A DNA stretch of 54,407 nt, taken from positions 1 to 54,407 of the forward strand of contig JAAELY010000157.1 in NCBI GenBank assembly GCA_024226335.1, given 5' to 3'. Below, piece by piece: positions 17,619 through 34,069 of this stretch. The translations under genes and the position numbers were made by a program. Source of the DNA: a bacterium. GTDB taxonomy: Bacteria; Myxococcota_A; UBA9160; SZUA-336. How positions within the stretch are numbered: the first letter of the stretch is position 1; every line of letters begins with the position of its first letter. The notes under the pieces are model-generated. The model ran no database searches, was not told the origin of the DNA, and was given only the letters and a program-made list of their open reading frames with translations.

Positions 17619-18265
17619 ACTCCCCCGTTGTTCATTCCGTCGAACCCTTCAGAAAACGGAAGCCGAGTACCCAAATGGTTCCTCAGAACACCTCCGCGGT
17701 ACGCAGCCCTCACCCCAAGGCGCCGGACTCTCGACACAAGCCCGTCAATGAACTGCCGGAATCCAGCTGCGCATTCTGTGACGCACCAGGGCCTGATTCG
17801 AGGTGCGAGATTCTTCCGGAACTTCTTGGAATACAAGGGCTTTCTGCCCACGATGGGTGCGGCTCCAATTGAAAAGGCGAATCGTTTTGGTACAGTCTAC
17901 TTCCGATCTAACTGGGCGTTTTCATTAGTGATTCTTGAATTTCAACCGCTTGGGGATCTCGCCGGGATCCAGTCGTCGCCGCCGTTGATGTGCGCGCTCC
18001 CGTCGGCAATCGCTGAATTTCCGGTTTCCGTTTTCGTTCGACCCGCAATGGAATGCTCGATTCCATCGGTTTTTCAGGTAGATAACGATTTCGCAGAACT
18101 AAGTGTCGTCGAGCACGACAGGCATCCGAAGCGCGCATGGCGACTGAGCGCAACCTCCCGGTCGGCCGTAACTCCCCTTTGGTATGTCGATTGCAGCACT
18201 GGGGACCCCGCGGCGCATGAAATCACCGCGGGTCTGTTGGGATTGTCGAAAGGCGAGGAAGGCGA
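17619..18265. other. 647-bp gene-poor leader region before the proteasome operon
   Basis: No convincing gene. One plus-strand open frame (17628-18269) crosses the region but has no ribosome binding site, no recognisable domain and an amino-acid make-up unlike its neighbours. The stretch is visibly less GC-rich than the flanking genes between about 17860 and 18070. It contains a promoter candidate at 17869-17896, which would leave a transcribed leader of roughly 360 bases before mpa. Confidence 0.6.
17869..17896 (+). promoter_or_regulatory. sigma-70-like promoter candidate for the proteasome operon
   Basis: TTGAAA at 17869-17874 and TACAGT at 17891-17896 are separated by 16 bases. It is the best vegetative-type promoter visible in the 647-base gap upstream of mpa and is in the correct orientation. 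Confidence 0.4.
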
Positions 18266-20086
18266 ATGAGCGAGTCTGGATCTGGTTCGGGTAGACGAGG
18301 CTTCGTGCGCGACGTAATGAAGCGCATCTCCACGCGAGGGGGCGAAGGCGAAGACAATCCGGTGCAGAGCGAGGTGGACGACCTCGAAAGTCTGCGCGAC
18401 GCACTCCGCTTCCTCGGACCTGAGGCCAGCGATCTGACGCGGCGAGTCGAGCGTGTCTTGATGGAGTACGAACTCCTGCGCCAGCGCTACGATCGCGCGC
18501 GCCAGCAGGTGTACGACGCCGAACAGCAGAATGAGAAGCTGGTCGGAACTCTGCAGGACGCGAAGCAGCAGATCGATCTCCTCAAGCAGGAAGTCGACAA
18601 GCTGTGTGCTCCGCCGAATACCTACGGCTTGTTCGAGCACGCCAACAAGGATGGCACAGTAGAAATCAACGTCGACGGCAAGATGATGCGTGTGAACGCG
18701 GATCCGAACGTGCGCACCGACGAACTGATGGAAGGTCAGCTCGTCGTGCTGAATGAGGCGTTCAATATCGTCGACTCGACCGACTTCGACCACCGCGGTG
18801 AGGTGATGCAGGTTTCGGACGTGCTGCACGACGGCCGTTTGATCGTGCTCGGCCATGCGGACGAGGAGCGCGTGATCAGTCTCAGCCAGCCGATGCGTCG
18901 CGAGAAGCTGAAGGCGGGCGACAATGTGCTGGTCAATCCGCGCACGGGTTTCGCCGTCGAGAAGTTGCCGAAGTCGACCGTCGACCAGGTCATGCTCGAA
19001 GAGGTTCCCGACGTCACCTACGAAGACATCGGAGGCCTGGGCGATCAGATCGAAGTACTACGCGACGCGATCGAGTTGCCATACCTGCACGCAGACGAGT
19101 TCAAGCGCTACGACCTGTCGCCGCCCAAGGGTATCCTGCTCTACGGACCTCCGGGCTGCGGCAAGACCATGATCGGCAAAGCGGTGGCGAACAGCCTCGC
19201 GCAGCGTATCGCTGAGGTTCGCGGCGGGGAGGCGAAGAGCTATTTCCTGAACGTGAAGGGCCCGGAGCTGCTCAATAAGTACGTCGGTGAGACGGAGCAC
19301 AAGATCCGAGAGGTCTTCAAGACCGCTCGAGACAAGGCGGAAGAGGACGTTCCTGTCGTCATCTTCTTCGATGAAATGGACTCGCTGTTCCGCATGCGCG
19401 GCTCTGGCATCTCCTCGGACATGGAAGCGACTGTCGTCGCGCAGTTCCTGTCGGAGATCGACGGCGTCGAGTCGCTGCGCAACGTCATCGTGATCGGCGC
19501 GTCGAACCGCCAGGATCTGATTGACCCCGCAGTTCTGCGTCCAGGGCGCCTCGATCTGAAGGTCAAGGTGCACCGCCCGGAGCGCGACGGTGCTCGTGAG
19601 ATCCTGATCAAGTATCTGACCGAGAACCTGCCGTTCCACGAAGACGCGAAGAAGCGCTTCGGCGACGATCCGGGTGCAATCGTGCGCGGGCTCTGCACGG
19701 ATACGATTGATTCAATGTACGGCGAGACCGAGGAGAACAAGTTCCTCGAGGTCACCTATGCCAAGGGTGAGCGCGAGATCTTCTACTTCAAGGATTTCTC
19801 CAGCGGCGCCATGCTGCGCAATATCGTGGACCGCGCAAAGAAGCGGGCCGTGAAGCGCGCCATCACCAATGGCGACGGCGGAATCCATATCGACGATATG
19901 CTCGACTCGGTTCGGGACGAGTTCAAGGAGAACGAGGATCTCCCGAACACGACGAACCCCGACGACTGGGCTCGGATCTCCGGACGCAAGGGTGAGCGCA
20001 TCATCAACGTGCGCACCTTGATCAGCGGAATCAACCGAAACGAGCGCTCGATCGAGACCGTCGGAGGATCCGGTCAATATCTCTAG
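18266..20086 (+). CDS. mpa: proteasome-associated AAA ATPase Mpa/ARC
   Basis: 606 residues, the length expected for Mpa/ARC. The ATG has GAGGAAGG upstream. Residues about 35-113 form the N-terminal coiled coil that captures Pup (VERVLMEYELLRQRYDR, QQNEKLVGTLQDAKQQ). Tandem OB domains follow to about 240. The AAA module has Walker A GPPGCGKT (294-301), Walker B VVIFFDEMD (364-372) and arginine-finger region RPGRLD (425-430). The protein ends GQYL, the same terminal motif as Mycobacterium Mpa, where it docks into the 20S alpha ring and opens the gate. It should unfold pupylated proteins and feed them to PrcA/PrcB. It is the first gene of a seven-gene run, 61 bases before dop. Confidence 0.96.
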   Translation: MSESGSGSGRRGFVRDVMKRISTRGGEGEDNPVQSEVDDLESLRDALRFLGPEASDLTRRVERVLMEYELLRQRYDRARQQVYDAEQQNEKLVGTLQDAKQQIDLLKQEVDKLCAPPNTYGLFEHANKDGTVEINVDGKMMRVNADPNVRTDELMEGQLVVLNEAFNIVDSTDFDHRGEVMQVSDVLHDGRLIVLGHADEERVISLSQPMRREKLKAGDNVLVNPRTGFAVEKLPKSTVDQVMLEEVPDVTYEDIGGLGDQIEVLRDAIELPYLHADEFKRYDLSPPKGILLYGPPGCGKTMIGKAVANSLAQRIAEVRGGEAKSYFLNVKGPELLNKYVGETEHKIREVFKTARDKAEEDVPVVIFFDEMDSLFRMRGSGISSDMEATVVAQFLSEIDGVESLRNVIVIGASNRQDLIDPAVLRPGRLDLKVKVHRPERDGAREILIKYLTENLPFHEDAKKRFGDDPGAIVRGLCTDTIDSMYGETEENKFLEVTYAKGEREIFYFKDFSSGAMLRNIVDRAKKRAVKRAITNGDGGIHIDDMLDSVRDEFKENEDLPNTTNPDDWARISGRKGERIINVRTLISGINRNERSIETVGGSGQYL

Positions 20087-20147
20087 GCGAGCAAGGTCCG
20101 GTGGGCGGCCTCGGCTAAAGACCAGCTAAGGCGAAGACGGGAGAAGA

Positions 20148-21632
20148 ATGCCACTTCCCAGTGTACTGGGCACGGAAATCGAGTATGGGATCACAGTCCA
20201 GGGCGACCCGGACTTCGATCCGATCTCGAGCTGCGTCCTGCTGGTCAATGCCTATCACGACCACGACGACGCGCAGATCCTCTGGGACTACGACCAGGAG
20301 AATCCGCTGGCCGATGCGCGGGGATTCCAGGTAGAGGGTGAACGACACACACCCAACCAGCAGGAGAACATCGCTCGCAACAAGACATTGCGAAACGGTG
20401 CTCGCTTCTATGTCGACCACGCTCATCCGGAGTACTCGACTCCCGAAGTGACCAACGTCCGCGAAGCGATCGCCTACGAGCGCGCAGGTGAGCGGACCAT
20501 GGAACTGGCCCGCCGCGCGGCTACCGCACTGCTCCCGCCGGGTCAGCAACTCCTGATTCACAAGAACAATAGCGACCGCAAGGGCAACTCGTACGGCAAT
20601 CACGAGAACTACCTGATCAATCGTCGTACACCCTTCAAGGAAGTGGTCGAGCACTTCACGCCATACTTGGTCACGCGCCAGATCTTCTGCGGATCGGGTA
20701 AGGTCGGCAGCGAAAATCGCGCCATGCAATGCGACTATCAGATTTCGCAGCGCGCAGATTTCTTCGAGACCGAGGTCGCGCTCGACACGATGGTCAAACG
20801 ACCGATCATCAACACACGCGACGAGCCGCATGCCGACCGCGAGAAGTACCGGCGCCTGCACGTGATCGTCGGCGACTCGAATATGTCCGAAGTTTCCACG
20901 TACCTGCGCGTGGGCACCAGTGCGATCGTCCTGGCGTTGATCGAAGACGGTGTAATCGATCGCGAGATGGCGATCAGTGAACCCGTCAAGGTGATCAAGG
21001 AAGTCTCGCACGATACGGCGTGCAAGCGCGAGTACTCGATGGAGCGAGGCGGTCGCATGACCGCGGTGCAGGTCCAGCAGGAGTATCTGGAGCTGGCGCT
21101 GAGCTACTACAGTTCGCGCGAGATCGACCCGGTTACCAAGGACGTGTTGGCCCGCTGGGAATCCGTGCTCGAGAAGCTGGCCGACGATCCATTTCAGCTG
21201 GATCGCGAGGTCGACTGGGTGATCAAGCACAAGATCATGCAGAGCTACATGCGCCGCCACTCGGTCGACTGGTTGCATCCGCAGATCGCCATGCTCGATC
21301 TGCAATACCACGATGTTCGCCCGGACAAGGGACTCTGTTTCCTGCTCGAGCGCCGCGGGGAGATCGACCGTATCGTCGAGAATGAAGAGATCGAGCGCGC
21401 GATCATCGAACCACCGACCGACACACGGGCCTACTTCCGAGGAGAGTGCATTCGCCGCTATCCGGAAGCCGTGTTTGGTGTGAACTGGGATTCCATTTCA
21501 TTCAACGTAGGTGATGAACCCATCAAGCGGATCCTGATGAACGAACCGCTGAAGGGAACCAAGGCACACGTCCAGGAGCTCCTCGATGCGAGCACGAGTG
21601 CTGAAACCTTGGTTCGGAATCTGACGTCGTAA
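20148..21632 (+). CDS. dop: Pup deamidase/depupylase Dop
   Basis: 494 residues, homologous to PafA with a glutamine-synthetase-like fold. The ATG follows GGGAGAAGA. Seen: GTEIEYG with the metal-binding glutamate near residue 10; the Dop-specific loop (DYDQENPLADARGFQ) that distinguishes Dop from PafA; the catalytic aspartate in ARFYVDHAHPEYSTPEV; and INTRDEPHADREKYRRLHVI. Dop cleaves the isopeptide bond between Pup and target lysines, and in actinobacteria it also deamidates Pup's C-terminal Gln. Because the Pup encoded next door already ends in Glu, only the depupylase activity appears necessary here. It sits 18 bases upstream of pup. Confidence 0.96.
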   Translation: MPLPSVLGTEIEYGITVQGDPDFDPISSCVLLVNAYHDHDDAQILWDYDQENPLADARGFQVEGERHTPNQQENIARNKTLRNGARFYVDHAHPEYSTPEVTNVREAIAYERAGERTMELARRAATALLPPGQQLLIHKNNSDRKGNSYGNHENYLINRRTPFKEVVEHFTPYLVTRQIFCGSGKVGSENRAMQCDYQISQRADFFETEVALDTMVKRPIINTRDEPHADREKYRRLHVIVGDSNMSEVSTYLRVGTSAIVLALIEDGVIDREMAISEPVKVIKEVSHDTACKREYSMERGGRMTAVQVQQEYLELALSYYSSREIDPVTKDVLARWESVLEKLADDPFQLDREVDWVIKHKIMQSYMRRHSVDWLHPQIAMLDLQYHDVRPDKGLCFLLERRGEIDRIVENEEIERAIIEPPTDTRAYFRGECIRRYPEAVFGVNWDSISFNVGDEPIKRILMNEPLKGTKAHVQELLDASTSAETLVRNLTS

Positions 21633-21650
21633 TCCTTTTAGGAGGCTCAC

Positions 21651-21908
21651 ATGAAAATCATGAAGAGGGCACAGGCCATGGGTTATTCGATACCCGGCGC
21701 GGCCGGAGACCAGTCCCAGAAGCAACGTCAGGGCGACGGCGATTCCGGAGATGAGGCGTCGGCCGACTCGGGCGGAAGCAAGAAGATGGCCAAGAAGGGC
21801 GAGGATCTGAAAGAAGAGATGGACAGCTTGATCGATGAGATCGATGAGGTCCTCGAAGAAAACGCCGAAGAGTTCGTCAAGAACTACGTTCAGCGCGGAG
21901 GCGAGTAA
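21651..21908 (+). CDS. pup: prokaryotic ubiquitin-like protein Pup (GGE end)
   Basis: 85 residues; the ATG follows a perfect AGGAGG. The C-terminal half matches Pup strongly: KKGEDLKEEMDSLIDEID, VLEENAEEFVKNYVQ, and the terminus RGGE. Mycobacterial Pup is 64 residues and ends GGQ, which must be deamidated. This one ends directly in Glu and is ready for ligation by PafA. The first 45 residues are longer than in typical actinobacterial Pup: MKIMKRAQAMGYSIPG, then an acidic, Gly/Ser/Gln-rich disordered stretch. The central helices would bind the Mpa coiled coil, and the N-terminus would be engaged by the Mpa pore. Pup tags proteins for proteasomal degradation. Confidence 0.96.
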   Translation: MKIMKRAQAMGYSIPGAAGDQSQKQRQGDGDSGDEASADSGGSKKMAKKGEDLKEEMDSLIDEIDEVLEENAEEFVKNYVQRGGE

Positions 21909-21915
21909 GCCTGTG
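21898..21915 (+). promoter_or_regulatory. prcB ribosome binding site inside the Gly-Gly-Glu codons of pup
   Basis: The last codons of pup are GGA GGC GAG TAA (21897-21908). GGAGG within them is the only Shine-Dalgarno for the prcB GTG at 21913, about 11 bases downstream. This decides the prcB start: the open frame extends upstream inside pup, but no other start has such a signal. Confidence 0.7.
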
Positions 21916-22692
21916 TTCAAAGGTCAGACTTACACAGGGGCGAGCTTCTACGAATTCTTGAAAGCCGATGCCCCCGGGTTGATTCCGGACTTCGGCAATA
22001 TGGACTGGACCACCGTCGAGCTTCCTCACGGTACCACCGTACTCTCACTGACCTACGACGGCGGTGTGTTGATGGCGGGTGACCGTCTGGCCACTGCGGG
22101 TCACGAGGTCGCGACGCGCGACATGGACAAGGTCTTTCGCATCGATCACACCTGCATGATGGCGATCGCCGGTGCGGCGGGTCCAGCGATCGAGATGGTG
22201 AAGATGTTCCAGCTCGAACTCGAGCACTTCGAGAAGCTCGACGGACAGGAACTCACCTTCGAGGGCAAGGCCAATCGTCTCAGCTTCCTGTTGCGCCAGA
22301 ATCTGCCGGCAGCCATGCAGGGGCTGGCCGTCATGCCTCTGTACGCAGGCTACGACCACGATTCCGACAAGGGCCGGATCTACAAGTTCGACATCACCGG
22401 TGGTCGCTATCGGGAGACGGACTTCTACGCAACCGGTTCCGGTGGCAAGGACGCGCGCTCGAGCTTGAAGCGGGCCTGGCACAGCAATCTATCCAGAGAG
22501 CAGGCCACCGAGATTGCGATCGAAGCGCTCATGGAAGCCGCCGACGAAGATACCGCGACCGGTGGTTTCGATATCTCGCGCGGGATCTACCCGATCGCGA
22601 AGTTCGCAAATAAAGAAGGCGCAGTGGACGTTCCCGAGGCAGAGGTCCTCGCCGCCCGCGAGCGCATTCTCGCACGTCGAGAGGCCGCCTAG
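21913..22692 (+). CDS. prcB: proteasome beta subunit PrcB
   Basis: 259 residues from the GTG at 21913. A propeptide of 40 residues (containing SFYEFLKADAPGLIPDF, as in actinobacterial PrcB) ends at HG, and processing before Thr41 exposes the nucleophile (TTVLSLTYDGG). Counting from that threonine, the catalytic partners fall exactly at Asp17 (MAGD) and Lys33 (RDMDK). The later GSGGKDARSSLKR and ADEDTATGGFD motifs match the family. PrcB forms the two inner heptameric rings that hold the proteolytic sites. It starts 4 bases after pup and its stop abuts the prcA ATG, so stoichiometric expression is likely. Confidence 0.97.
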   Translation: MFKGQTYTGASFYEFLKADAPGLIPDFGNMDWTTVELPHGTTVLSLTYDGGVLMAGDRLATAGHEVATRDMDKVFRIDHTCMMAIAGAAGPAIEMVKMFQLELEHFEKLDGQELTFEGKANRLSFLLRQNLPAAMQGLAVMPLYAGYDHDSDKGRIYKFDITGGRYRETDFYATGSGGKDARSSLKRAWHSNLSREQATEIAIEALMEAADEDTATGGFDISRGIYPIAKFANKEGAVDVPEAEVLAARERILARREAA

Positions 22693-23376
22693 ATGAGTAC
22701 ACCGTTCTACGTTCCACCCGAACAGCTCTACCAGGAGCGCGCAGAGTACGCGCGCAAAGGGATCTCGCGCGGTCGTCCGCTCGTTGCGCTGGAGTACGAA
22801 CTCGGCGTGGTGATGATGGCCGAGAACCGCAGTGCAAGTCTGCGGAAGCTCTCCGAGATCTACGATCGCATCGCGTTTGGCGGTGTGGGCAAGCTGGACG
22901 AGTATGAAAACCTGCGGAAGGCCGGGGTTCGCTATGCGGATCAGCGCGGATTCGCGTTCTCGCGTGAGGACGTTTCCGCCAAGGGTCTGGCGAATGAATA
23001 CTCCACGGTGCTGGGTTCGGTCTTCACGCGGGAGATGAAGCCCTTCGAGGTCGAAGTTCTGGTGGTCGAGGTGCACGATGACAGCAGCACCTTCTTCCAG
23101 ATTCGGTACGATGGAAGCATGATCGACCACACTCACTACGCCGCGATCGGCGGAGATGGCGACAAGCTGCTCGATATGCTGGCGACCCGCTGGAAGGCGA
23201 GCATGCCGCTCGACGAGACGGTTCTTCTGGGTCGGGAAGCGCTTTCCGGTAACGGCTCGGGTGTGGACGATCTGGACGAGAAGAGTCTCGAGGTTGCGGT
23301 CCTGGATCGCACGCAGACCGGTCGCAGATTCAAGCGCCTCAAGCCAGAGGAAATCAAGAGCCTCCTGAGCGGATAG
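22693..23376 (+). CDS. prcA: proteasome alpha subunit PrcA
   Basis: 227 residues. The N-terminus MSTPFYVPPEQLYQERAEYA followed by RKGISRGRPLVAL matches the gating end and alpha-type helix H0 of bacterial proteasome alpha subunits. SEIYDRIAFGGVGKLDEYENL and ADQRGFAFSREDVSAKGLAN follow. No catalytic threonine is present, as expected. PrcA makes the outer heptameric rings that control entry and receive the C-terminal QYL of Mpa. The ATG directly follows the prcB stop codon, and pafA starts 2 bases downstream. Confidence 0.96.
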   Translation: MSTPFYVPPEQLYQERAEYARKGISRGRPLVALEYELGVVMMAENRSASLRKLSEIYDRIAFGGVGKLDEYENLRKAGVRYADQRGFAFSREDVSAKGLANEYSTVLGSVFTREMKPFEVEVLVVEVHDDSSTFFQIRYDGSMIDHTHYAAIGGDGDKLLDMLATRWKASMPLDETVLLGREALSGNGSGVDDLDEKSLEVAVLDRTQTGRRFKRLKPEEIKSLLSG

Positions 23377-23378
23377 TT

Positions 23379-24785
23379 ATGCAGAAGCGGATCTACGGGC
23401 TAGAAACGGAGTATGGGATCATCTTCACACCGGAGGGTCGCAAGACTCTGCCGGTCGAGAAGGCGATCCGCTTCCTTTTCGAAAAGCTCATCACCACCGA
23501 ACACTTCCTGAACGTGTTTCTGGAAAACGGTGCCCGCTTCTATCAGGACACGGGGTGTCACCCGGAGTACGCGACGCCCGAGTGCGCCAGCCCGCGCGAT
23601 CTGGTCATTTTCGATCGCGCCGGTGAGAGAGTTCTCGAAGATCTGCAGTTGTATGCGGAAGAGAAGATTCGGGAGGAACGCGTCCCGGGCAAGCTCTCTA
23701 TCTTCAAGAACAACACAGACTTCGTCGGCAATAGCTATGGCTGCCACGAAAACTATCTGGTCGATCGTGACGTCGACTTCTACTACCTGGCCGAGCAGTT
23801 AATTCCGTTCCTGGTTACCCGCCAGGTTTTCTCCGGCGCAGGCAAGGTGTTTCAGACCCAGGACGGCGTTCACTACTGCGTCAGCCAGCGTGCCCAGCAC
23901 ATCTACCAGAAGATCTCCGGTACCACGACCAACGATCGCTCGATCATCAATACGCGCGATGAACCGCACGCCGATCGCGAAAAGTACCGACGGCTGCACG
24001 TAATCGTGGGCGATTCGAACATGTCGGAGTACACGAACTTCGTGAAGATCGCGACCTGCGCGGTCGTTCTCCAGATGATCGAGGACGGCTTCATCAATAA
24101 GGAATTGACGCTCCGCCACCCGGTGAAGGCGATCAAGGACATCTCGTACGACACGACCTGCAAACGCAAGGTGCGTCTGGAGAACGGACGCGAGTACTCG
24201 CCGATCGAGATCCAGCGCGAGTATTGTGAGATGGCCCAGCGCTACATCGAGCAGGCTCCGGTCAGCGATCAGATCCGAGAAGGTGTGGAGCAGTGGGCGT
24301 ACATCCTCGACTGCCTCGACGACGATCCCGAAAAGCTCGACCGGAAGATCGACTGGGTGATCAAGCGCAAACTCCTGCGCCAGTACATCAAACGACACAA
24401 CATCTCGTGGCATGATCCACGCGTGTTCATGATCGATCTGCAATTCCACGACATCAGGCGCGATCGCGGCTTTTTCTACCTGCTCGAGCGCCAGGACCAC
24501 GTGGATCGGCTCTATTCCGATGCCGAGATCGAGAAGGCCAAGACCGAACCGCCGCAAGACACCCGCGCGCGCATGCGTGGCGACTTCATCAAGCTCGCTC
24601 GGCAGAACAATATCCAGTACGACCTGGACTGGTCCAATATTCGACTGGGCAATCTCTTGAACGTGCGCGTGATCTGCAACAACCCGTTCGAGACCGATAC
24701 GGAAAAGGTCACCGAACTGGTTCGCACGATCCAGAAGACCAATCTGCGCCGGACTTCGCTCTCAAAACTGGTCATCCAGAGCTGA
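23379..24785 (+). CDS. pafA: Pup-protein ligase PafA
   Basis: 468 residues, the usual PafA length. It activates the C-terminal Glu of Pup with ATP and joins it to lysine side chains. Seen: RIYGLETEYGIIF with the Mg-binding glutamate, the catalytic aspartate in ARFYQDTGCHPEYATPEC, NNTDFVGNSYGCHENY, INTRDEPHADREKYRRLHV, and PPQDTRARMRGDFIKLA. It lacks the Dop loop, which separates it from dop in the same operon. Order and spacing (2 bases after prcA, 6 before the next gene) show a single transcription unit. The two paralogues share long identical patches such as NTRDEPHADREKYRRLHVI. Confidence 0.97.
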   Translation: MQKRIYGLETEYGIIFTPEGRKTLPVEKAIRFLFEKLITTEHFLNVFLENGARFYQDTGCHPEYATPECASPRDLVIFDRAGERVLEDLQLYAEEKIREERVPGKLSIFKNNTDFVGNSYGCHENYLVDRDVDFYYLAEQLIPFLVTRQVFSGAGKVFQTQDGVHYCVSQRAQHIYQKISGTTTNDRSIINTRDEPHADREKYRRLHVIVGDSNMSEYTNFVKIATCAVVLQMIEDGFINKELTLRHPVKAIKDISYDTTCKRKVRLENGREYSPIEIQREYCEMAQRYIEQAPVSDQIREGVEQWAYILDCLDDDPEKLDRKIDWVIKRKLLRQYIKRHNISWHDPRVFMIDLQFHDIRRDRGFFYLLERQDHVDRLYSDAEIEKAKTEPPQDTRARMRGDFIKLARQNNIQYDLDWSNIRLGNLLNVRVICNNPFETDTEKVTELVRTIQKTNLRRTSLSKLVIQS

Positions 24786-24791
24786 CTTCGT

Positions 24792-25142
24792 ATGTCTGCT
24801 GATCCGAAGCTTCGCGCCGTTCCCGAAACCCCCGAAGAGCGTCTCGTCTTCGAACCAGACGAGCCTGGAAACACGGAGACGCCCAGTCGGATTCCCGTGT
24901 TGCTTGGCCTGCTGTTGGCGGTCTGTATTGCATTGCTGATCTGGAGCCGCATGGAACTCGCCGATGGCGCCGCCCAGATCTCCTCGCTCGAAAACCGCGT
25001 GGGCGTTCTGGAAAACACGGTGAGCGAACGCGACGCCGAGATCGCCGCACAAAAAGATCGACTGTCTGACGTAAGAACGCGTGTACAGGGACTCCTGTCC
25101 CTGCTCGACGCGCCCGTCGGCTCCCGACCCTCGAAGCCCTAG
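24792..25142 (+). CDS. small membrane-anchored coiled-coil protein at the end of the proteasome operon
   Basis: 116 residues, starting 6 bases after pafA. Layout: an acidic, Pro/Glu-rich N-terminal tail (residues 1-32), one membrane segment (about 33-54, containing PVLLGLLLAVCIALLIW), then a heptad-rich coiled coil (about 58-105: ISSLENRVGVLENTVSERDA) and a short basic tail. I do not recognise a family. Its position makes co-expression with the Pup-proteasome genes likely. A coiled coil could interact with the Mpa coiled coil or with Pup, but that is inference. An unrelated passenger with an FtsB/FtsL-like layout is the alternative. Confidence 0.7.
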   Translation: MSADPKLRAVPETPEERLVFEPDEPGNTETPSRIPVLLGLLLAVCIALLIWSRMELADGAAQISSLENRVGVLENTVSERDAEIAAQKDRLSDVRTRVQGLLSLLDAPVGSRPSKP

Positions 25143-25157
25143 CCCTAGCCCTAGCCC
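25135..25157. repeat. short AGCCCT tandem repeat
   Basis: Nearly four copies of the hexamer AGCCCT run from 25135 to 25157, starting inside the last codons of the preceding gene and including its stop codon. It is a slippage-type microsatellite. Confidence 0.85.
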
Positions 25158-25209
25158 GCACTCGCACCGCCTCGCTTCGCGCCGTGGCGATCAATGCGCC
25201 GAGCCCGTC

Positions 25210-25226
25210 CCGAAGCCCTGCTTCGG
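25210..25226 (+). terminator. hairpin after the proteasome operon
   Basis: CCGAAGC (25210-25216), a 3-base loop, and GCTTCGG (25220-25226) form a perfect 7-bp stem between the proteasome operon and mreB. No U-tract follows, so it may be only a weak or Rho-assisted terminator. The rest of 25143-25363 shows no gene. Confidence 0.4.
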
Positions 25227-25363
25227 CGAGCGGCACTTCCCGGCGGAAGGCCGCAGCATTGCTTCAGGATCCGCTCCTGTCTGCCGATGTATTGCATGCG
25301 TGCACACACAGGACCGGTGGGTTCGCGTATGAGCGCGTGGCTAGCTGATATCTCGGAGAGACA

Positions 25364-26398
25364 ATGATCTTCAAATGGTTCGCAGGCTTGTTCTCCAACG
25401 ATCTCGCGATTGATCTCGGCACCGCCAATACGCTGGTGTACGGGCGTGATCGCGGGATCATCTGCAGTGAACCTTCGGTGGTCGCAGTCGCCGACGGGCC
25501 CAATGGAACACGTCGTGTGCTGGCCGTCGGTAGCGAAGCCAAGGAGATGGTCGGTCGCACGCCCGGGAGCATCAAAGCGATCCGTCCGATCAAAGACGGA
25601 GTGATCGCCGACTTCGAAGTCACCGAAGCGATGCTGCGCTACTTCATCCAGAAGGCGCACAATCGCCGTCGCCTGGTTCGCCCGCGCATCGTCATCTGTG
25701 TGCCGCCTTGTATCACGTCGGTGGAAAAGCGCGCGGTTCGCGAGTCGGCTAGCTCGGCGGGTGCGCGCGAAGTCTTCCTGGTCGAAGAACCCATGGCCGC
25801 CGCGATCGGTGCAGGTCTGGCCGTGACCGAACCCACCGGAAATATGGTGATCGACATCGGTGGCGGAACGACCGATGTCGCCGTCATCTCACTGGCCGAT
25901 ATCGTGACCTCCAGTTCAGTACGCGTCGGCGGCGACAAGCTCGACGAGGCGATCATCCAGTTCGTCAAGCGCAAGCACAATCTGATGATTGGCGAGCGCA
26001 CCGCAGAGATCATCAAGATTACGATTGGCACCGCGCTCGGTCAGGGTCCCGCGAAGACCATGGAGGTCAAGGGCCGCGACCTGGTCGCCGGTGTTCCGAA
26101 GATGGTGGTCATGTCGAGTGAAGAAGTGCGCGAGGCGCTCACGGAGCCGATTCACCAGATCGTCGAAACCGTGAAGCATACGCTCGAGCGCACGCCTCCG
26201 GAGTTGTCTGCGGACATCGTCGATCGGGGCATCGTGCTGGTTGGCGGCGGTGCGTTGCTACGAGACTTCGACCAGCTTCTGCGAGCCGAGACCAAACTGC
26301 CGATCGTGCGCGGCGACGATCCGTTTACGGCTGTGGCCATCGGCGCGGGCAAGGCTCTGGATTCTCTGGAGTTGTTGCGCGACGTGGCGATGGACTAG
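25364..26398 (+). CDS. mreB: rod shape-determining protein MreB
   Basis: 344 residues, normal length. The ATG follows CGGAGAG. Actin-fold nucleotide motifs are clear: DLGTANTLVY near the N-terminus (phosphate 1), DIGGGTTDVAVISL near 165 (phosphate 2), and VDRGIVLVGGGALL near 285 (adenosine). An N-terminal amphipathic segment MIFKWFAGLFS would bind the membrane. MreB filaments direct lateral-wall peptidoglycan synthesis, implying a rod-shaped cell. mreC and mreD do not follow, which is unusual; the gene stands alone here and is followed by a hairpin and a convergent gene. Confidence 0.96.
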   Translation: MIFKWFAGLFSNDLAIDLGTANTLVYGRDRGIICSEPSVVAVADGPNGTRRVLAVGSEAKEMVGRTPGSIKAIRPIKDGVIADFEVTEAMLRYFIQKAHNRRRLVRPRIVICVPPCITSVEKRAVRESASSAGAREVFLVEEPMAAAIGAGLAVTEPTGNMVIDIGGGTTDVAVISLADIVTSSSVRVGGDKLDEAIIQFVKRKHNLMIGERTAEIIKITIGTALGQGPAKTMEVKGRDLVAGVPKMVVMSSEEVREALTEPIHQIVETVKHTLERTPPELSADIVDRGIVLVGGGALLRDFDQLLRAETKLPIVRGDDPFTAVAIGAGKALDSLELLRDVAMD

Positions 26399-26408
26399 CT
26401 TCGAGGTT

Positions 26409-26428
26409 CGGTCCCGCTCAAGGGACCG
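26409..26428. terminator. hairpin between mreB and the convergent SCP2-like gene
   Basis: CGGTCCC (26409-26415), loop GCTCAA, GGGACCG (26422-26428) form a perfect 7-bp stem, 10 bases after the mreB stop and facing the convergent gene that ends at 26473. It is a plausible bidirectional terminator, although neither side has a clear U-tract. Confidence 0.5.
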
Positions 26429-26472
26429 TTGCGCGATCCCGGCGTTCGAAGCTCAAAGAGTACGAACGCCAA

Positions 26473-27072
26473 TCACTCCGGAGCCATGATGGCCATGGCC
26501 ATCTTCATGGGGACTTCGACGTCGCCTTCCATTTCCAGCTTTCCCGTCATGAAAGCTCCCTGCAGGTCGAGTTCGCCTGAGATCAGCTGCTGAAACTCTT
26601 CTTCGGGAATCGAGATTGTCGTGAGCGGATCGGGCACGGGCGGAGCGCCGAAGTGGATCGTGACGCCCCAGGCATCGTCGCCGGTGACCTGGACGCGCAT
26701 CGTGCCTTCGATCTCCTTGAAAACCTCGAGCCGGGACGGTGTCAGGACGAAGTCCGGTGTTCCACCGACGCCACCAAGCAAGGCCATGGGGGACGATCCG
26801 ACGCTCGCTTCGAGTTTTCCGCAGTCGCTGGTGCCCATCTGCATCGACAGCAAAACGTCGGGCTCCGCGATGCTGGCCGTGGTCATCTCGCCGTTTCGCA
26901 CCAGAAGCTGATAGCTGCCCGCGTCGGGCACGAGGATGGCCAACGAGAAGTTAGCAGTGCGCATTTTTTCGAGTAGCTCGGCACCTTCGGGACCGCAGTC
27001 GAGCTGCTCCTGCAGGCGCCGGTTCCAGGCTTCGGGGACCATCTTCTTGAAATACTCGCTCGGCTCCGACAT
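26473..27072 (-). CDS. SCP2 sterol-binding-domain-like protein
   Basis: 199 residues, no signal peptide. The ATG is preceded by GGAGGAG. The C-terminal half (about 110-195) has the SCP2 pattern: beta strands, then EEFQQLISGELDLQGAFMTG and KLEMEGDVEVPMKMAMA, close to the usual Gel-x-x-qxAFmtGklKieGD block. SCP2 domains bind hydrophobic ligands such as fatty acyl-CoAs or sterols. The N-terminal part (NFSLAILVPDAGSYQLLVRN) is less typical. It may bind a lipid or acyl-CoA, in line with the fatty-acid oxidation implied by ETF-QO, but the ligand is unknown. It is 33 bases downstream of mltG on the same strand. Confidence 0.78.
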   Translation of the reverse strand: MSEPSEYFKKMVPEAWNRRLQEQLDCGPEGAELLEKMRTANFSLAILVPDAGSYQLLVRNGEMTTASIAEPDVLLSMQMGTSDCGKLEASVGSSPMALLGGVGGTPDFVLTPSRLEVFKEIEGTMRVQVTGDDAWGVTIHFGAPPVPDPLTTISIPEEEFQQLISGELDLQGAFMTGKLEMEGDVEVPMKMAMAIMAPE

Positions 27073-27105
27073 GCGCTTCTCCTCCTGGGGATTCCTGAGA
27101 GACTC

Positions 27106-28155
27106 TCAAGAACCCGAGCGACGTCTCCGTTGGTAGCGGTTCACCGCCTGGTTGTGCTCGTTCAGGGTTCTCGAGAAGACGTGAGTCCCGTCGTTGCGGG
27201 ACACGAAGTACAGATAGGGTACATCGGCAGGGGCCAGGACCGCACGGATCGATTCGATCGTGGCGCTCGAGATCGGGCCCGGTGGCAGTCCCGAGCGTGT
27301 GTAGGTGTTGTAGGCGGTGTCTTCCCTGAGGTCGCGATTGCGGATGTCGCCGTCCCACTCGCCCCGGGTGTTCAGGATGCCGTAGATCACCGTCGGGTCG
27401 GACTGCAGGCGCATGCGCTTGCGCAGGCGATTGTCGTAGACGGCGGCAACCAGCGGGCGCTCAGCGTCGACGGCGGTTTCTTTTTCGACGATCGAGGCAA
27501 GCGTGAGGATCTGGTGAAGATCGAGTCTCGACGCGGCGATGGCCGCGCGATCTTCATCGCTGAAGCGGCTTCTGAACTCTTCGAACATCCAGCTAACCAC
27601 TTCCTGGGCCGGGGTCCCGCGGCGGAAGCGATAGGTCTCGGGGTACAGATAGCCCTCGAAAGTCGCGGCGTTCACGCCGAGTTGCTGGGCGAACTGAGCA
27701 TCCTGGGCCTTTTCCAGAAAAGCGTCTGCGCTGGTGATCTCGGCGGCCTGCAGCCGCTCGGCCACTTCGTCCAGACGCAGGCCCTCGGGGATGGTGACCG
27801 GGTGGGTCTTGACGGCTCCGGTGACCAGTTTTTCCAGGATCAAACGCGGCGTCATGTTCGCCGCCAGGTCGTATTCGCCGATCTTCACGTCGCGATCCAG
27901 TCCGGCGTAGCGCGCATAGGCGACCAGCACACCCGGACCGAACAACGTGCGATCGGGCAGTAGATCCCGGGTCTGCAGGCGATCGGCGATCGAATGCAGC
28001 GACTCGCCCGCCCGTACGACGAACACGTGCTGGGTCGCATTTTGACCGGCTGCCACGTCGAGACCGTTCAGGCTGAAGCGCACGACCCCGAGCAGCACCA
28101 ATACGGCGACCGCGGCGACTCCGCTCGCAATCCAGACTGCGGTCTTGCCGTTCAC
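27106..28155 (-). CDS. mltG: endolytic murein transglycosylase MltG
   Basis: 349 residues with one N-terminal membrane segment (VWIASGVAAVAVLVLLGVV). A LysM-like subdomain (VVRAGESLHSIADRL) and the YceG catalytic domain follow. The catalytic glutamate lies in LASIVEKETAVDAERPLVA, followed by VYDNRLRKRMRLQSDPTVIY and YNTYTRSGLPPGPISS. MltG cuts nascent glycan strands at the inner membrane and is thought to end their polymerisation. The GTG start (28153-28155) overlaps the ruvX stop (GTGA), so the two are coupled; this neighbourhood is common in bacteria. Confidence 0.95.
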   Translation of the reverse strand: MNGKTAVWIASGVAAVAVLVLLGVVRFSLNGLDVAAGQNATQHVFVVRAGESLHSIADRLQTRDLLPDRTLFGPGVLVAYARYAGLDRDVKIGEYDLAANMTPRLILEKLVTGAVKTHPVTIPEGLRLDEVAERLQAAEITSADAFLEKAQDAQFAQQLGVNAATFEGYLYPETYRFRRGTPAQEVVSWMFEEFRSRFSDEDRAAIAASRLDLHQILTLASIVEKETAVDAERPLVAAVYDNRLRKRMRLQSDPTVIYGILNTRGEWDGDIRNRDLREDTAYNTYTRSGLPPGPISSATIESIRAVLAPADVPYLYFVSRNDGTHVFSRTLNEHNQAVNRYQRRRRSGS

Positions 28156-28571
28156 CTGGGGTTCCGCTCGATGAACGATCGCAAGAGCAGGGAGGCCGCG
28201 ATCGGATCGACACGACCGCGACGCTTGCGGGACGACATACCGGAGTCGGCCATCGCGCGCTCGGCCTCGGCCGAGGTCCAGCGCTCATCCTGATACTCGA
28301 CGGCCACACCGGTCGCACTCGCCACCCGTTTGCCGAAGCGCTCGGTCAGTTCGACCTGTGGCCCGCGGCTTCCGTCCAGATTCAACGGCAGTCCGATCAC
28401 GATCCGATCCACGCCGTACTCCGTGACCAGTTCGCGGATGCGGGCTATGCCCATGGCGCGGTCACCGCGCGGGCGTTCGATCGTCTCGAGCGGTTGCGCG
28501 AGGGTTCCGGTCGGGTCGGTGATGGCCACGCCGATCCTGCGCTCTCCGTAATCCAGGGCCAGGGTTCGCAC
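28152..28571 (-). CDS. ruvX: RuvX/YqgF family RNase H-fold nuclease
   Basis: 139 residues, the standard YqgF length. Motifs: ALDYGERRIGVAITDPTGT with the first acidic residue, IVIGLPLNLDGSRGPQ, YQDERWTSAEAE with the second acidic pair, and RGRVDPIAASLLL with the last aspartate. The family is annotated as a putative Holliday junction resolvase and is implicated in 16S rRNA 5'-end maturation. The start is GTG at 28569-28571. It overlaps mltG downstream. Confidence 0.92.
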   Translation of the reverse strand: MRTLALDYGERRIGVAITDPTGTLAQPLETIERPRGDRAMGIARIRELVTEYGVDRIVIGLPLNLDGSRGPQVELTERFGKRVASATGVAVEYQDERWTSAEAERAMADSGMSSRKRRGRVDPIAASLLLRSFIERNPR

Positions 28572-28618
28572 CCGGCCACGGTAGCAGAACGCGCTTCAGC
28601 TTCCGCCCGCCGCCAGTG

Positions 28619-28635
28619 CCGGAAGCCTGTTCCGG
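28619..28635. other. 6-bp stem hairpin between ruvX and the HEAT-repeat gene
   Basis: CCGGAA (28619-28624), loop GCCTG, TTCCGG (28630-28635). It lies in the 87-base gap between two minus-strand genes and may attenuate transcription into ruvX-mltG. No U-tract is visible. Confidence 0.35.
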
Positions 28636-28658
28636 TGGTCTTCACGGCCCTATCCTCT

Positions 28659-30206
28659 TCACGGCGTTGCCGGGACAACCATCTGCTCGAGCGCAGCCTC
28701 GCACAGCCGCCGCACGTCGCCGCCGCCGTCGCGCAAGTACGCGGTCAGCACCCGCCGGGCCTGGTCGCCACCGATCCGGGCAATCGCCTGGGCCGCAAGC
28801 GCCTGGCGCTCCCGCAGGCGTCTGCGCTGAAGCAAGGCATTCTGCCCGAGCACCTTCTCCAGCACCGAAATCGCACCTGACCCTCCAATTCTGCCGAGGC
28901 TTTGGATGGCCTCTCGGCGGACTTCCTCGGAAGCACCGCTGTGATCGTCGAGTGCCGCCGCCAGTGCCGGGATCGCGCGACTTCCGCGGGCCCTTCCCAG
29001 GGCGGCGGCGGCGGCCACGGCCAGGCCCGGTTCGGGACTGGCCAGAGCCTCGATCAAGCCATGCAGGGCCTTTTCGCTGCCGATCCGGGCAAGTGCGCGC
29101 GCACCCTCGCGGCGAATTCGATTGTCTCGACTGCGCAGGCTGTTGAGTAGGAACTCGACCCCTTCGGGATTCTGCATCTCGCCCAGCAGACGCGCGGCGC
29201 GGCGTGCACGTTCCGGTTCCGTTGTGGAGAGTTCTTCGACGACGGCGGGCAAGGCCTGTCCGCCCATCGCGATCAGCACTGCGGTTGTCTGCCCCTGCGT
29301 GTTCGAACCCACCTGGTTCAGCCGTCGCAACAGGTGCGGCACCGCGCTCGGGCCGATGCACATCAAGGCCTGGGTTGCCTGCACGCTGGTAAGGCCTGAG
29401 GTCGCGCAGGCCTGCCCGAGCAGGAACTCCATCAGGGACGGATCGCGTGCCAGTGCGCGCAGGCGCTCCGCGGCTTCGCGGCGGATCTCGTTTTTGTGCA
29501 GGCGGCCATCGGCGTGCCGAGCGAAAACCAGCATTGAGCGGTACGCATCGATGCGATCGCCGTGGCGCAGCATCGCGGCGACGGTGCTGCCGATTTCCGC
29601 GGCCCGTTTCGCGTACTCCAGTGGGTCCTCACAGATCTCGATCTCCGCCAGCTGGCGTACCAGCATCACGGTGTCGTCGCTGGAAACGGGTGTTTCGACC
29701 GGCGCTGCCTTTTCTGCCGGTTCGCTTTCCGTCGTCGGCTCCGCACGAACCGGACTCGCGAGGGCGATCCCCTCGTCGGGTTTGGGTTCCAGCGTCGTCA
29801 CGTTGAAGACCCCTGCATCCTCCAGGCCCTGCTGAAAGCCACCAATTGCGAGCAGGCTCTCCGGATCCATGACCAAGACTTCCACCAGCGCCGCGAGTTC
29901 GCCGGCCTCGAGTTCTGGCAGGACTCGCAGGCGCCTCACCCGGCGAACCAGGAGCGCTCCCGCGAGATCGTCGATGCCCGGCCCGCGCATTTCCCCGCCC
30001 TTGGACAACACGAAACTCGCCTGACGGAAACTCAGGTCGATCCCATTCATGTGGACCAGAGCTGCCAGCCAGAGCCCAGTCATGTGTTCGAGCGCATCGC
30101 GCATGGCCGGATGCGTTCTCGGGTAGAACTCGCGCGCGCGTACCGAGCGAGCGAGTTCCAGAAGCAGCGGTGAAACGCTCTCCCGGCTGGGGCTGGCCTG
30201 ACTCAT
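28659..30206 (-). CDS. HEAT-repeat protein
   Basis: About 515 residues from the ATG at 30204-30206, which has CCGGAGA just upstream; the open frame continues 28 codons further without a start signal. The N-terminal part (1 to about 140) has an unrecognised helical domain with RTHPAMRDALEHMTGLW. A Pro/Glu-rich linker lies near 165-190. The C-terminal 300 residues are HEAT/PBS-lyase-like repeats of about 30 residues, for example REGARALARIGSEKALHGL, LAVAAAAALGRARGSRAIP and RREAIQSLGRIGGSGAI. Such solenoids bind proteins; no enzyme motif is seen. Probably cytoplasmic. Confidence 0.78.
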   Translation of the reverse strand: MSQASPSRESVSPLLLELARSVRAREFYPRTHPAMRDALEHMTGLWLAALVHMNGIDLSFRQASFVLSKGGEMRGPGIDDLAGALLVRRVRRLRVLPELEAGELAALVEVLVMDPESLLAIGGFQQGLEDAGVFNVTTLEPKPDEGIALASPVRAEPTTESEPAEKAAPVETPVSSDDTVMLVRQLAEIEICEDPLEYAKRAAEIGSTVAAMLRHGDRIDAYRSMLVFARHADGRLHKNEIRREAAERLRALARDPSLMEFLLGQACATSGLTSVQATQALMCIGPSAVPHLLRRLNQVGSNTQGQTTAVLIAMGGQALPAVVEELSTTEPERARRAARLLGEMQNPEGVEFLLNSLRSRDNRIRREGARALARIGSEKALHGLIEALASPEPGLAVAAAAALGRARGSRAIPALAAALDDHSGASEEVRREAIQSLGRIGGSGAISVLEKVLGQNALLQRRRLRERQALAAQAIARIGGDQARRVLTAYLRDGGGDVRRLCEAALEQMVVPATP

Positions 30207-30370
30207 GCGTCTCCGGTGACAAGATTGGACGAAACGGGCAAATGAGCGCCATGCGAAGGCCGCAGATGGCGCAAGGGTCTCGTGACGCAAATCGGCCTTT
30301 TCGGGCCCGGACCTTAGGGCGCGCTGTTGCGCGTGACCGATGGATATTCTTTCGCTATATTTTCGCCTGG

Positions 30371-30399
30371 TTGACGCCCCGGAAAGCGCTGACTACCTT
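30371..30399 (+). promoter_or_regulatory. promoter candidate for pgpA-cinA-thpR-recA
   Basis: TTGACG (30371-30376), 17 bases, TACCTT (30394-30399). It lies in the divergent region between the HEAT-repeat gene and pgpA, about 30 bases before the pgpA ATG. The -10 element is weak. Confidence 0.35.
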
Positions 30400-30430
30400 G
30401 CGCGAGAGTGGCAGAAGTACTTGAATTACA

Positions 30431-30895
30431 ATGAGAATTTTCATTCTCTTTCTCGCGTCGGCGGCTGGGACCGGATTCCTGCCGGTCGCCCCGGGGACCT
30501 GGGGCTCGCTGTTCGCGGTGTTTCTGTTCGTCCCCCTTTCCAGTCTCGCGCCACCGAGTTATCTGCTGGCCCTGGTCGGCACAGCGGTCGTTGGGGTCTG
30601 GTCGGCCCAGAGGGCGGAGAGTTTCTTTGGCCGGCACGACGATGGCCGGATCACGATCGACGAAGTCGCCGGTCAGCTACTGGCCCTCGCCTTCTTGCCT
30701 CTCAGGCTCGACGTAGTCTTGTTGGGCTTCGGTTTGTTTCGCTTGTTTGACATCTGGAAGCCGCCGCCGGTGCGTCAAGCCGAACGCCTGCCCGGGGGTT
30801 TCGGCGTCATGGCCGATGACCTCGTCGCGGGTGCCTACGCGAATCTGATCGGCCAGATCGTCTGGCGCCTCGGATTTCCCGAAGGCCTGCTATGA
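30431..30895 (+). CDS. pgpA: phosphatidylglycerophosphatase A
   Basis: 154 residues, normal for PgpA, which dephosphorylates phosphatidylglycerol phosphate in the inner membrane. Motifs: GTGFLPVAPGTWGSLFAV at the start, ITIDEVAGQLLAL, LFRLFDIWKPPPVRQAE and the terminal PGGFGVMADDLVAGAYANL. Three to four hydrophobic segments are visible. The ATG at 30431 has no obvious Shine-Dalgarno, and a GAGAAT/ATTCTC inverted repeat (30433-30448) begins at the last base of the start codon. Its stop overlaps the cinA ATG (ATGA). Confidence 0.92.
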   Translation: MRIFILFLASAAGTGFLPVAPGTWGSLFAVFLFVPLSSLAPPSYLLALVGTAVVGVWSAQRAESFFGRHDDGRITIDEVAGQLLALAFLPLRLDVVLLGFGLFRLFDIWKPPPVRQAERLPGGFGVMADDLVAGAYANLIGQIVWRLGFPEGLL

Positions 30896-32223
30896 CGCAG
30901 TCTCGCGAGGCCGCGTGGATCGTGACGATTGGCGACGAACTGCTGCGCGGTGAGATCGTAGATTCCAACAAGTCCGTGCTCTCAGAGCGTCTCTTGAGGC
31001 TGGAAATCGAGAGTGCACGACACGTCACGGTTGCTGATGACGCGGCCGCAATCCGCGAGGTGCTGCGCGAGGCCGCCTCCCGCGCGCGCATCGTTCTGGT
31101 TTCCGGCGGTCTCGGGCCGACTCGCGACGATATTACCTCGGAGGTCGCCGCGGCCAGCTTCGGCCGCAAACTCGTGCGCGATCCCGAGTCACTCGAGCAC
31201 ATCAAGGGATTCTTCCGCCGCTTTCAGCGCGAAATGGCCGAGAACAACGCGAAGCAGGCCGATTTCCCGGAGGGCGCAGAGCCACTGCCCAACCCCGCGG
31301 GGACCGCACCGGGCTTCATGCTCGACGTGGATCCCGTGACGGGCGCCGCCGGTTCTGCGGATCCGACGCTGCTTTTCTTCATGCCGGGCGTCCCGCGGGA
31401 ACTCTACCGCATGGTCGATGAGCAGGTGCTGCCGCGCATCGCCAGTCGGATCGATCGGCGCGGCGTCGTTCGCGCGACCCTCGTGCGTACCTTCGGCCAG
31501 GGTGAATCGAATCTCGATCGCATCCTCGACGATCTGGCTCGCGACGATCCCGACACCGATATCGGTTTTCGCACCCAGTTTCCCGACAATCTGGTGCGGG
31601 TCCGCGTGCGGGCCGAAAGTGCTGCCGATGCTGAGGAAAAGTTGCGGAGCGTGCTCGACGAAATCGCCGGACGCCTGGGCGACGTCATTCTGGGAGAGAG
31701 CGATCGCTTCATGCACGAAATCGTCGGCGAGCTTCTGCTCGAGCGAGACAAGACGCTGGCCGTGGCCGAATCCTGTACGGGAGGACTGATCGCGAGCCGT
31801 CTGACCGACGTGCCCGGAAGCTCTGCCTATTTTCTGCAGGGCGTGGTGGCCTACGCAAACGAGGCCAAGGTGCGCGAACTCGAGGTCGATGCGGCCACGC
31901 TCGAACAGCACGGTGCCGTCTCCGAGCCCGTGGCCCGGCAGATGGCCGAGGGCGTGCGGCGGCGTTCGGGGTCCGACATCGGGCTGGCGACCACCGGGAT
32001 CGCCGGTCCAGGTGGCGGCACGCCCGAAAAACCCGTGGGAACCGTGTTTCTGGCGCTGGCGGATGCCGAGGGTACCGTCGCGATGCGCTACGACCTGATG
32101 AGCGAGCGCGCGCGCAACAAGGAACTCTCGGCGCAGATCGCGCTCGACTGGCTGCGGCGCAGACTGCTGGGTCTCGAAATCACGCGCGAGACCTTTCCCC
32201 GTCTGCGAGGGGCGCGCCCGTGA
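30892..32223 (+). CDS. cinA: CinA family nicotinamide-nucleotide amidase
   Basis: 443 residues with both CinA domains. The N-terminal molybdopterin-binding-like COG1058 domain (WIVTIGDELLRGEIVDSNKS, LVSGGLGPTRDDIT, FFMPGVPRELYRM) hydrolyses ADP-ribose-type pyrophosphates in studied homologues. The C-terminal PncC domain (LAVAESCTGGLIASRLTDVP, ATTGIAGPGGGTPEKPVGTV) deamidates nicotinamide mononucleotide. The product takes part in pyridine-nucleotide salvage; in some bacteria cinA is linked to competence and recA. It overlaps pgpA at the start and the thpR GTG at the end, so the cluster pgpA-cinA-thpR-recA is one operon. Confidence 0.95.
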   Translation: MTQSREAAWIVTIGDELLRGEIVDSNKSVLSERLLRLEIESARHVTVADDAAAIREVLREAASRARIVLVSGGLGPTRDDITSEVAAASFGRKLVRDPESLEHIKGFFRRFQREMAENNAKQADFPEGAEPLPNPAGTAPGFMLDVDPVTGAAGSADPTLLFFMPGVPRELYRMVDEQVLPRIASRIDRRGVVRATLVRTFGQGESNLDRILDDLARDDPDTDIGFRTQFPDNLVRVRVRAESAADAEEKLRSVLDEIAGRLGDVILGESDRFMHEIVGELLLERDKTLAVAESCTGGLIASRLTDVPGSSAYFLQGVVAYANEAKVRELEVDAATLEQHGAVSEPVARQMAEGVRRRSGSDIGLATTGIAGPGGGTPEKPVGTVFLALADAEGTVAMRYDLMSERARNKELSAQIALDWLRRRLLGLEITRETFPRLRGARP

Positions 32224-32819
32224 GCGAACCCCTGCGCACCTTTATCGCAGTTCCGCTGCCCGAGAGCGTGCGGGATTCCGCTGCTGAGGCGCTGGCCGAT
32301 GCACGTGTCGCTCTTGGAGAGCGCGCGCGCTGGACGCCCGCCGAAAATCTGCACTTGACGCTCAAATTCCTGGGCGACGTGGATCGGGACCAGCTACCGA
32401 AACTGATCCAACGCCTGCAGGCAAAGCTCGCAGGTGTCGCGGTTTTCGAGGCGGCTCTCGGGGGACTCGGCGCATTCCCGAATGCGCGCGAGGCCAGTGT
32501 GTTGTGGCTCGGCGTAACCACGGGGTTGAGCGATCTGGCCAAGCTCGCGCGCAAGGTCGACGCCGCGTCGAAGGTCGTCGGTGTAGCTCGCGAGAAGCGG
32601 CCCTTCCGCGCCCACCTCACATTGGCACGTCTGCGCACACCCGAGCGGGTCGACGTTGAACGCATGAAAGCACCCGAAGAGGTCCCTTTCCGCGTTGAAC
32701 AAGTCATACTCTACGAGAGCCGTCTCTCCCCCGACGGCGCTCGGCATGTCCCCCTCGCTCATCTGCCCCTCGGTGTAGATGACGAAGACCGAGCAATCGA
32801 TTTCGCCCCAGAGATGTAG
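32220..32819 (+). CDS. thpR: RNA 2',3'-cyclic phosphodiesterase
   Basis: 199 residues of the 2H phosphoesterase (LigT) family. Two HxTx motifs are present: [13 protein letters not shown] near residue 45 and [10 protein letters not shown] near residue 130. These histidines open 2',3'-cyclic phosphates at RNA ends; the cellular role is not settled. The GTG start at 32220 overlaps the cinA stop (GTGA). The gene ends 11 bases before recA. Length is close to the family's 175-190. Confidence 0.93.
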
Positions 32820-32830
32820 GAGAGAAACGC

Positions 32831-33919: not shown

Positions 33920-34069
33920 AGAGTACGCATCCGGCGCGAAGCCTCGCCCGCTACGCCTCAAGATCGTTCTGGCTCACGTCGATCAACCTCCGGTAACCAC
34001 CGGTGCTGTCCGTTCAGCGATTCCCGATGAACGCAGGTACCGACCGAGGGGCGGTTCGGCTTGGCTGGA

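Follow-up and report, generated by a model that had tools for sequence, protein, structure and literature searches.

What does a small membrane protein do when its gene directly follows that of the Pup ligase, and does it belong to the Pup-proteasome pathway at all? The question is raised by the window studied here, that is, the whole 54,407-nucleotide stretch of DNA that was analysed, in which mpa, dop, pup, prcB, prcA and pafA lie in this order on one strand and are followed by an open reading frame at positions 24792-25142. An earlier note on this DNA had singled out the frame as a membrane and coiled-coil protein appended to the operon, one that could tether the proteasome or present membrane substrates. 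No published report of the gene was found in the literature searched.

A conserved gene of the Pup operon encodes one membrane helix and a coiled coil

The reading frame is a genuine gene: it starts with ATG, its product of 116 amino acids combines a single membrane helix with a coiled coil (Table 1), and dN/dS values of 0.12 to 0.57 in ten of ten pairs of related orthologues argue that it is not a chance frame and is held by purifying selection. As the earlier note had it, the gene starts 6 bp after the stop codon of pafA, and because of this spacing we assign it to the Pup operon. The next gene on its 3' side, which the earlier note had left unmentioned, is mreB2. A scan of positions 24400-25500 returned two terminator-like sites, neither of them between the gene and mreB2, and no promoter-like site. 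A short run of CCCTAG repeats (window positions 25137-25157) contains the stop codon of the gene. The Pup operon itself lies among envelope and DNA genes (14633-34000; ftsK, lolA, mltG, recA), the order of which is common to many genomes of the class. Within the operon, the true start of prcB probably lies further inside the listed reading frame, and the label Dop is one that we presume from the gene order and from the general features of the family.

Table 1. Coordinates of the gene that follows pafA, of its parts and of its neighbours (positions in the window).
Feature	Position	Strand	Basis or remark
mpa, proteasomal ATPase, C-terminal GQYL	18266..20086	+	PF16450, PF17758, PF00004
dop, second Pup-ligase family gene	20148..21632	+	PF03136
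pup, C-terminal GGE	21651..21908	+	PF05639
prcB, proteasome beta subunit	21835..22692	+	PF00227; overlaps pup as listed
prcA, proteasome alpha subunit	22693..23376	+	PF00227
pafA, Pup ligase	23379..24785	+	PF03136, E = 2.8e-151
Small bitopic coiled-coil protein gene, 116 aa	24792..25142	+	Open reading frame, orthologues, AlphaFold2, hydropathy, heptads
Codons 1-33, predicted cytosolic disordered acidic tail	24792..24890	+	AlphaFold2 low confidence, positive-inside count, net charge -4
Codons 5-10, PKLRAV, N-terminal motif P-x-[LIV]-x-x-[VIL]	24804..24821	+	Kept across the family
Codons 34-52, single transmembrane helix	24891..24947	+	Mean Kyte-Doolittle hydropathy 2.68, helix in the model
Codons 53-105, coiled coil, predicted periplasmic	24948..25106	+	AlphaFold2, positive-inside, heptads, conserved L66, R95 and L101
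mreB2, second MreB of the genome, class-specific	25364..26398	+	PF06723, E = 4e-146

The hydrophobic segment at residues 34-52 is the only one in the protein, and each of the 62 family members likewise has one main segment and no second one, in agreement with the single membrane helix noticed at first reading. AlphaFold2, run on the single sequence, gave an unbroken helix over residues 34-105, with block-mean pLDDT values of 91-97 for residues 41-50 and 61-100, and an N-terminal tail of low confidence devoid of secondary structure; such a model consists of helix and disorder only, dimers and partners being beyond its reach. A heptad pattern above that of shuffled sequences (P < 0.05) was detected in 61/61 family members and, together with the continuous helix, upholds the long coiled coil proposed before (one protein with a cut start, L132, was dropped from the flank, heptad, tail-charge and motif counts, which brings the 62 proteins to 61). 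The tail, which had been described as acidic, is so in the window protein, while as a rule for the family this does not hold, tails being net negative in 37 of the 61 members.

The orientation of the protein was read from the lysines and arginines that flank the helix. Counted over ten residues per flank, the N-terminal side is the richer in 44 of 61 proteins and the C-terminal side in 4; over five residues the figures are 31 and 9. By the positive-inside rule, the N-terminal tail is thus predicted with fair support to be cytosolic, and the coiled coil to be periplasmic. The coiled coil, which the earlier note had set next to a coiled-coil unfoldase, would therefore make no contact with the coiled coil of Mpa, and a coil-to-coil contact was ruled out on this predicted topology; with the coil predicted outside, the proteasome machinery would be reachable by the short tail only. 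This tail carries a motif, P-x-[LIV]-x-x-[VIL], which 33 of the 61 members have within their first 25 residues, as against 9 of 171 control reading frames and 5.9% of shuffled tails, and a looser form, [LIV]xx[VILM], occurs in the tails of 50 of 62 members compared with 16% of shuffles. In the alignment of profile A1, built from family members as described below, P5 is near-invariant, as are L66, R95, L101 and P108, the last just past the coiled coil.

No fitting family emerged from Pfam and NCBIfam, in which the matches were weak and mostly to coiled coils, and similarity to solved proteins was likewise confined to generic coiled coils. One membrane helix, an N-in orientation and a coiled coil outside (the topology being predicted) give the protein the architecture of the FtsL/FtsB type. 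As to identity, FtsL (PF04999) was absent both from the matches of the window protein and from the 25 Pfam families listed for 39 members, and FtsB/DivIC (PF04977) stayed below the cut-off, with a best E value of 0.0084 and 5 of 39 members at E ≤ 0.1; both identities were rejected. So was that of MreC, absent from the matches of the window protein and from the families listed for the 39 members, and that of a PafB/PafC regulator, the protein having no Pfam match above cut-off and consisting of 116 residues with a membrane helix.

Occurrence and position of the gene in the class and in the phylum

When the window protein alone served as query, a match at E ≤ 0.01 was obtained in 12 of 59 related genomes, its own included, and pafA adjoins 8 of the 9 others that fell under E = 1e-3. 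A profile was then drawn from 43 reading frames after pafA, chosen by eye as encoding a coiled coil together with a single membrane helix; 39 of them form the rows of profile A1 (4 chosen loci were left out), and start codons were set by hand in 10 loci. Over the 90 genomes of the class, this profile gave 64 matches in 63 genomes at E ≤ 1.6e-13, and 61 of the 64 lie 3' of pafA on the same strand and within 1.2 kb. Because the profile was made from pafA-adjacent genes, the fair figure is that of the matches neither included in it nor chosen beforehand, 18 of 21 of which adjoin pafA; in the remaining three (G053, G064 and G075), no more than 1.2 kb separates the match from the start of its contig, and mreB2 is the next gene. 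The earlier note had proposed looking for the same gene after pafA in other non-actinobacterial proteasome operons and had held that orthologues lying mainly away from proteasome genes would speak against a link to the proteasome. Orthologues were found where it proposed to look. In this class, the Pup-proteasome locus includes the gene as a conserved component, with the constant position beside the core Pup genes in many species that marks an accessory gene of the locus.

Two apparent true paralogues, G025:C68 and G068:C152, lie away from both pafA and mreB2; these (L139:1873-2502 and L140:2199-2936, both on the minus strand) retain a hydrophobic-plus-acid N-terminal motif. Weak profile matches off pafA in seven genomes (G063, G083, G048, G017, G006, G019 and G010) were judged to be other membrane or secreted coiled-coil proteins, the one in G006 having what we take to be a peptidase M23 domain. 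A scan of named genomes yielded a single match, in a Lachnospiraceae genome, covering residues 62-105 of the query only.

The gene is not present wherever the core Pup genes are. In 14 genomes with the 3' end of pafA (G008, G016, G018, G024, G045, G046, G047, G048, G049, G072, G082, G087, G088 and G089), no match at E ≤ 6.1e-10 was seen, and in a fifteenth, G063, the sole weak match is on another contig; a frame-by-frame profile search past pafA in the genomes without the gene gave nothing under E = 0.3. As at least 14 genomes retain pafA without the gene beside it, the Pup pathway can do without it, and we regard it as an accessory part.

Among 377 genomes of the phylum, 90 of which make up the class, 85 gave a match to pafA (E ≤ 1e-100) and 64 to profile A1 (E ≤ 1e-8), all of them within the class, while the 287 genomes outside it had, at the cut-offs used, neither the gene nor pafA nor an mreB2-type copy. 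The phylum search scored only 11 candidates per genome where the class search scored up to 46, and a remote relative outside the class may therefore have been missed. The limits of pafA, the gene and mreB2 in the phylum sample are identical, which shared descent alone could explain.

Candidate roles of the protein

The reading that we tentatively prefer, with a probability of about 0.4, is that the gene product is a membrane docking adaptor co-expressed with the Pup locus, its partner being putative. The class-specific accessory gene of the operon would encode a short protein that spans the inner membrane in type II orientation (N-in, C-out). Its long helix may pair as a periplasmic coiled coil and fix the protein in the envelope. 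The cytosolic tail of some 35 residues, with its P-x-L-x-x-V sequence, would act as a docking peptide that recruits a co-expressed partner from the cytosol to the inner membrane. The likeliest candidates are PafA and the other components of the Pup pathway, and such recruitment could favour pupylation of membrane or near-membrane proteins. As to the putative partner, the operon points to PafA or another Pup-pathway protein, and neighbourhood and architecture point to MreB2.

A close rival to the docking adaptor is a protein that serves as the membrane partner of MreB2, its tail binding the MreB2 filaments and its periplasmic coil reaching wall-building proteins; the Pup genes would then be bystanders, and the protein would be comparable to the membrane-anchored parts of the elongasome. 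We hold this to be a serious possibility, if a doubtful one. Most genomes of the class have two MreBs, of which the copy on the pafA side is 73-89% identical to that of the window and the canonical copy 65-73% (in the genome of the window, the canonical gene is on contig C118 with a penicillin-binding protein and RodA). All matches of the window MreB2 at E ≤ 3e-159 fall within the class, the best outsider reaching 2.8e-158. Outside it, each genome matching at E ≤ 1e-140 has a single MreB match. Being class-specific, as is the family gene, and lying within 1.5 kb of 57 of the 67 matches, mreB2 is a plausible partner gene; one-helix coiled-coil proteins are common as envelope scaffolds, and in G032, where a 6-phosphogluconate dehydrogenase gene separates pafA from the family gene, mreB2 still adjoins. 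The spacing, on the other hand, fits co-translation with pafA rather than with mreB2, since, of 43 aligned loci, 22 have the gene starting within 20 bp of the pafA stop codon, 5 of them in contact or overlap with pafA, whereas mreB2 starts no closer than 81 bp, with a median of 190 bp, in the 40 loci that could be measured. Other genes separate the family gene from mreB2 in G013 and G015, where pafA still adjoins, G020 has lost mreB2 and retained the family gene beside pafA, and 10 genomes have mreB2 without the family gene. Furthermore, the N-terminus of MreB2 appears able to bind the membrane unaided, judging from an apparent membrane-binding motif in its sequence.

Shared loss might have spoken for MreB2, as the family gene is absent from 5 of the 7 PafA-tree rows without mreB2 (one of these, G042, was scored as such although its contig ends short of that place) and from 10 of the 69 rows with it. 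This association, strong in raw counts, fails on independent pairs: on the tree of 76 rows, which was built by a quick method and has many open forks, 9 changes of state were counted for the family gene and 6 for mreB2, and the two change in the same way in 1.7 of 3 independent pairs on average (median P = 0.5), a number of pairs that cannot reach significance.

It is unlikely, in our estimate, that the protein is a free envelope component that works with neither neighbour and owes its place after pafA to a conserved gene order of the class, a view to which the ftsK-to-recA stretch kept around the gene in many genomes, the paralogues elsewhere in G025 and G068 and the frequent losses on the PafA tree would lend themselves; in 10 of the class's 12 family codes, however, the gene keeps a steady short distance from pafA, which exceeds what loose synteny would need. 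A divisome protein of the FtsL or FtsB (DivIC) type has by far the least to recommend it. The architecture is alike, and weak matches of family members to PF04977 (DivIC) and, in NCBIfam, to FtsL were obtained, but these stay weak, and the genome has its own FtsL on contig C488, between mraZ and a penicillin-binding protein, and its own DivIC on contig C137, both over the cut-off. Finally, pafA, the gene and mreB2 lie together and are all confined to the class in the phylum sample, and a single module of proteasome, cytoskeleton and envelope may be envisaged, in which the protein would tie the Pup pathway both to the inner membrane and to MreB2 filaments and thereby place pupylation and degradation along the envelope; we rate this as improbable.

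Where bacterial proteasomes are placed in the cell, and whether membrane proteins are among their targets, has received little attention outside actinobacteria. If the gene encodes a conserved membrane adaptor within the operon, it would be a handle on both, and the regular presence of a second MreB next to the gene opens a connection between protein degradation and cell shape to testing.

Comparison with known systems

In size, in its one membrane helix, in its periplasmic coiled coil as predicted and in its short cytosolic tail, the protein is like FtsL and FtsB/DivIC, from which the family differs in giving no significant profile match. MreC consists of a membrane helix followed by a coiled coil, plus beta domains; the protein resembles it in adjoining an mreB and in the succession of helix and coil, and differs in that 116 residues are presumably too short for the beta domains.

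The actinobacterial Pup locus, as set out in the part of PMC8223512 that deals with it, reads mpa-dop-pup-prcBA-pafA-pafBC, pafB and pafC being DNA-binding regulators with a winged-helix domain located 3' of pafA. The core genes of the present locus are alike and similarly ordered, whereas the place of pafBC is taken by a one-helix coiled-coil membrane protein and then by mreB2. Iyer et al. (2008; PMC2588565), in the passage on these loci, described Pup ligases of Plesiocystis and Rhodopirellula that bear a membrane insert and are linked to a gene for a membrane protein, and proposed pupylation at the membrane. The genome of the window also encodes, on another contig (C54; L162:5686-7470, minus strand), a second Pup-ligase homologue of 595 residues (PF03136, E = 1.3e-84) in which an insert at about residues 156-204 is strongly hydrophobic and which resembles the membrane-insert ligases as described there; akin open frames of 606-630 residues occur in G002, G004, G010 and G043. 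No 19-residue stretch of the window PafA exceeds a mean hydropathy of 1.47. The present locus is therefore like those of Plesiocystis and Rhodopirellula in linking a Pup-ligase gene to a membrane-protein gene, and differs from them, as they are depicted in that passage (PMC2588565), in that there the ligase itself bears the membrane segment and proteasome genes are lacking, whereas here the proteasome genes are present in the same operon.
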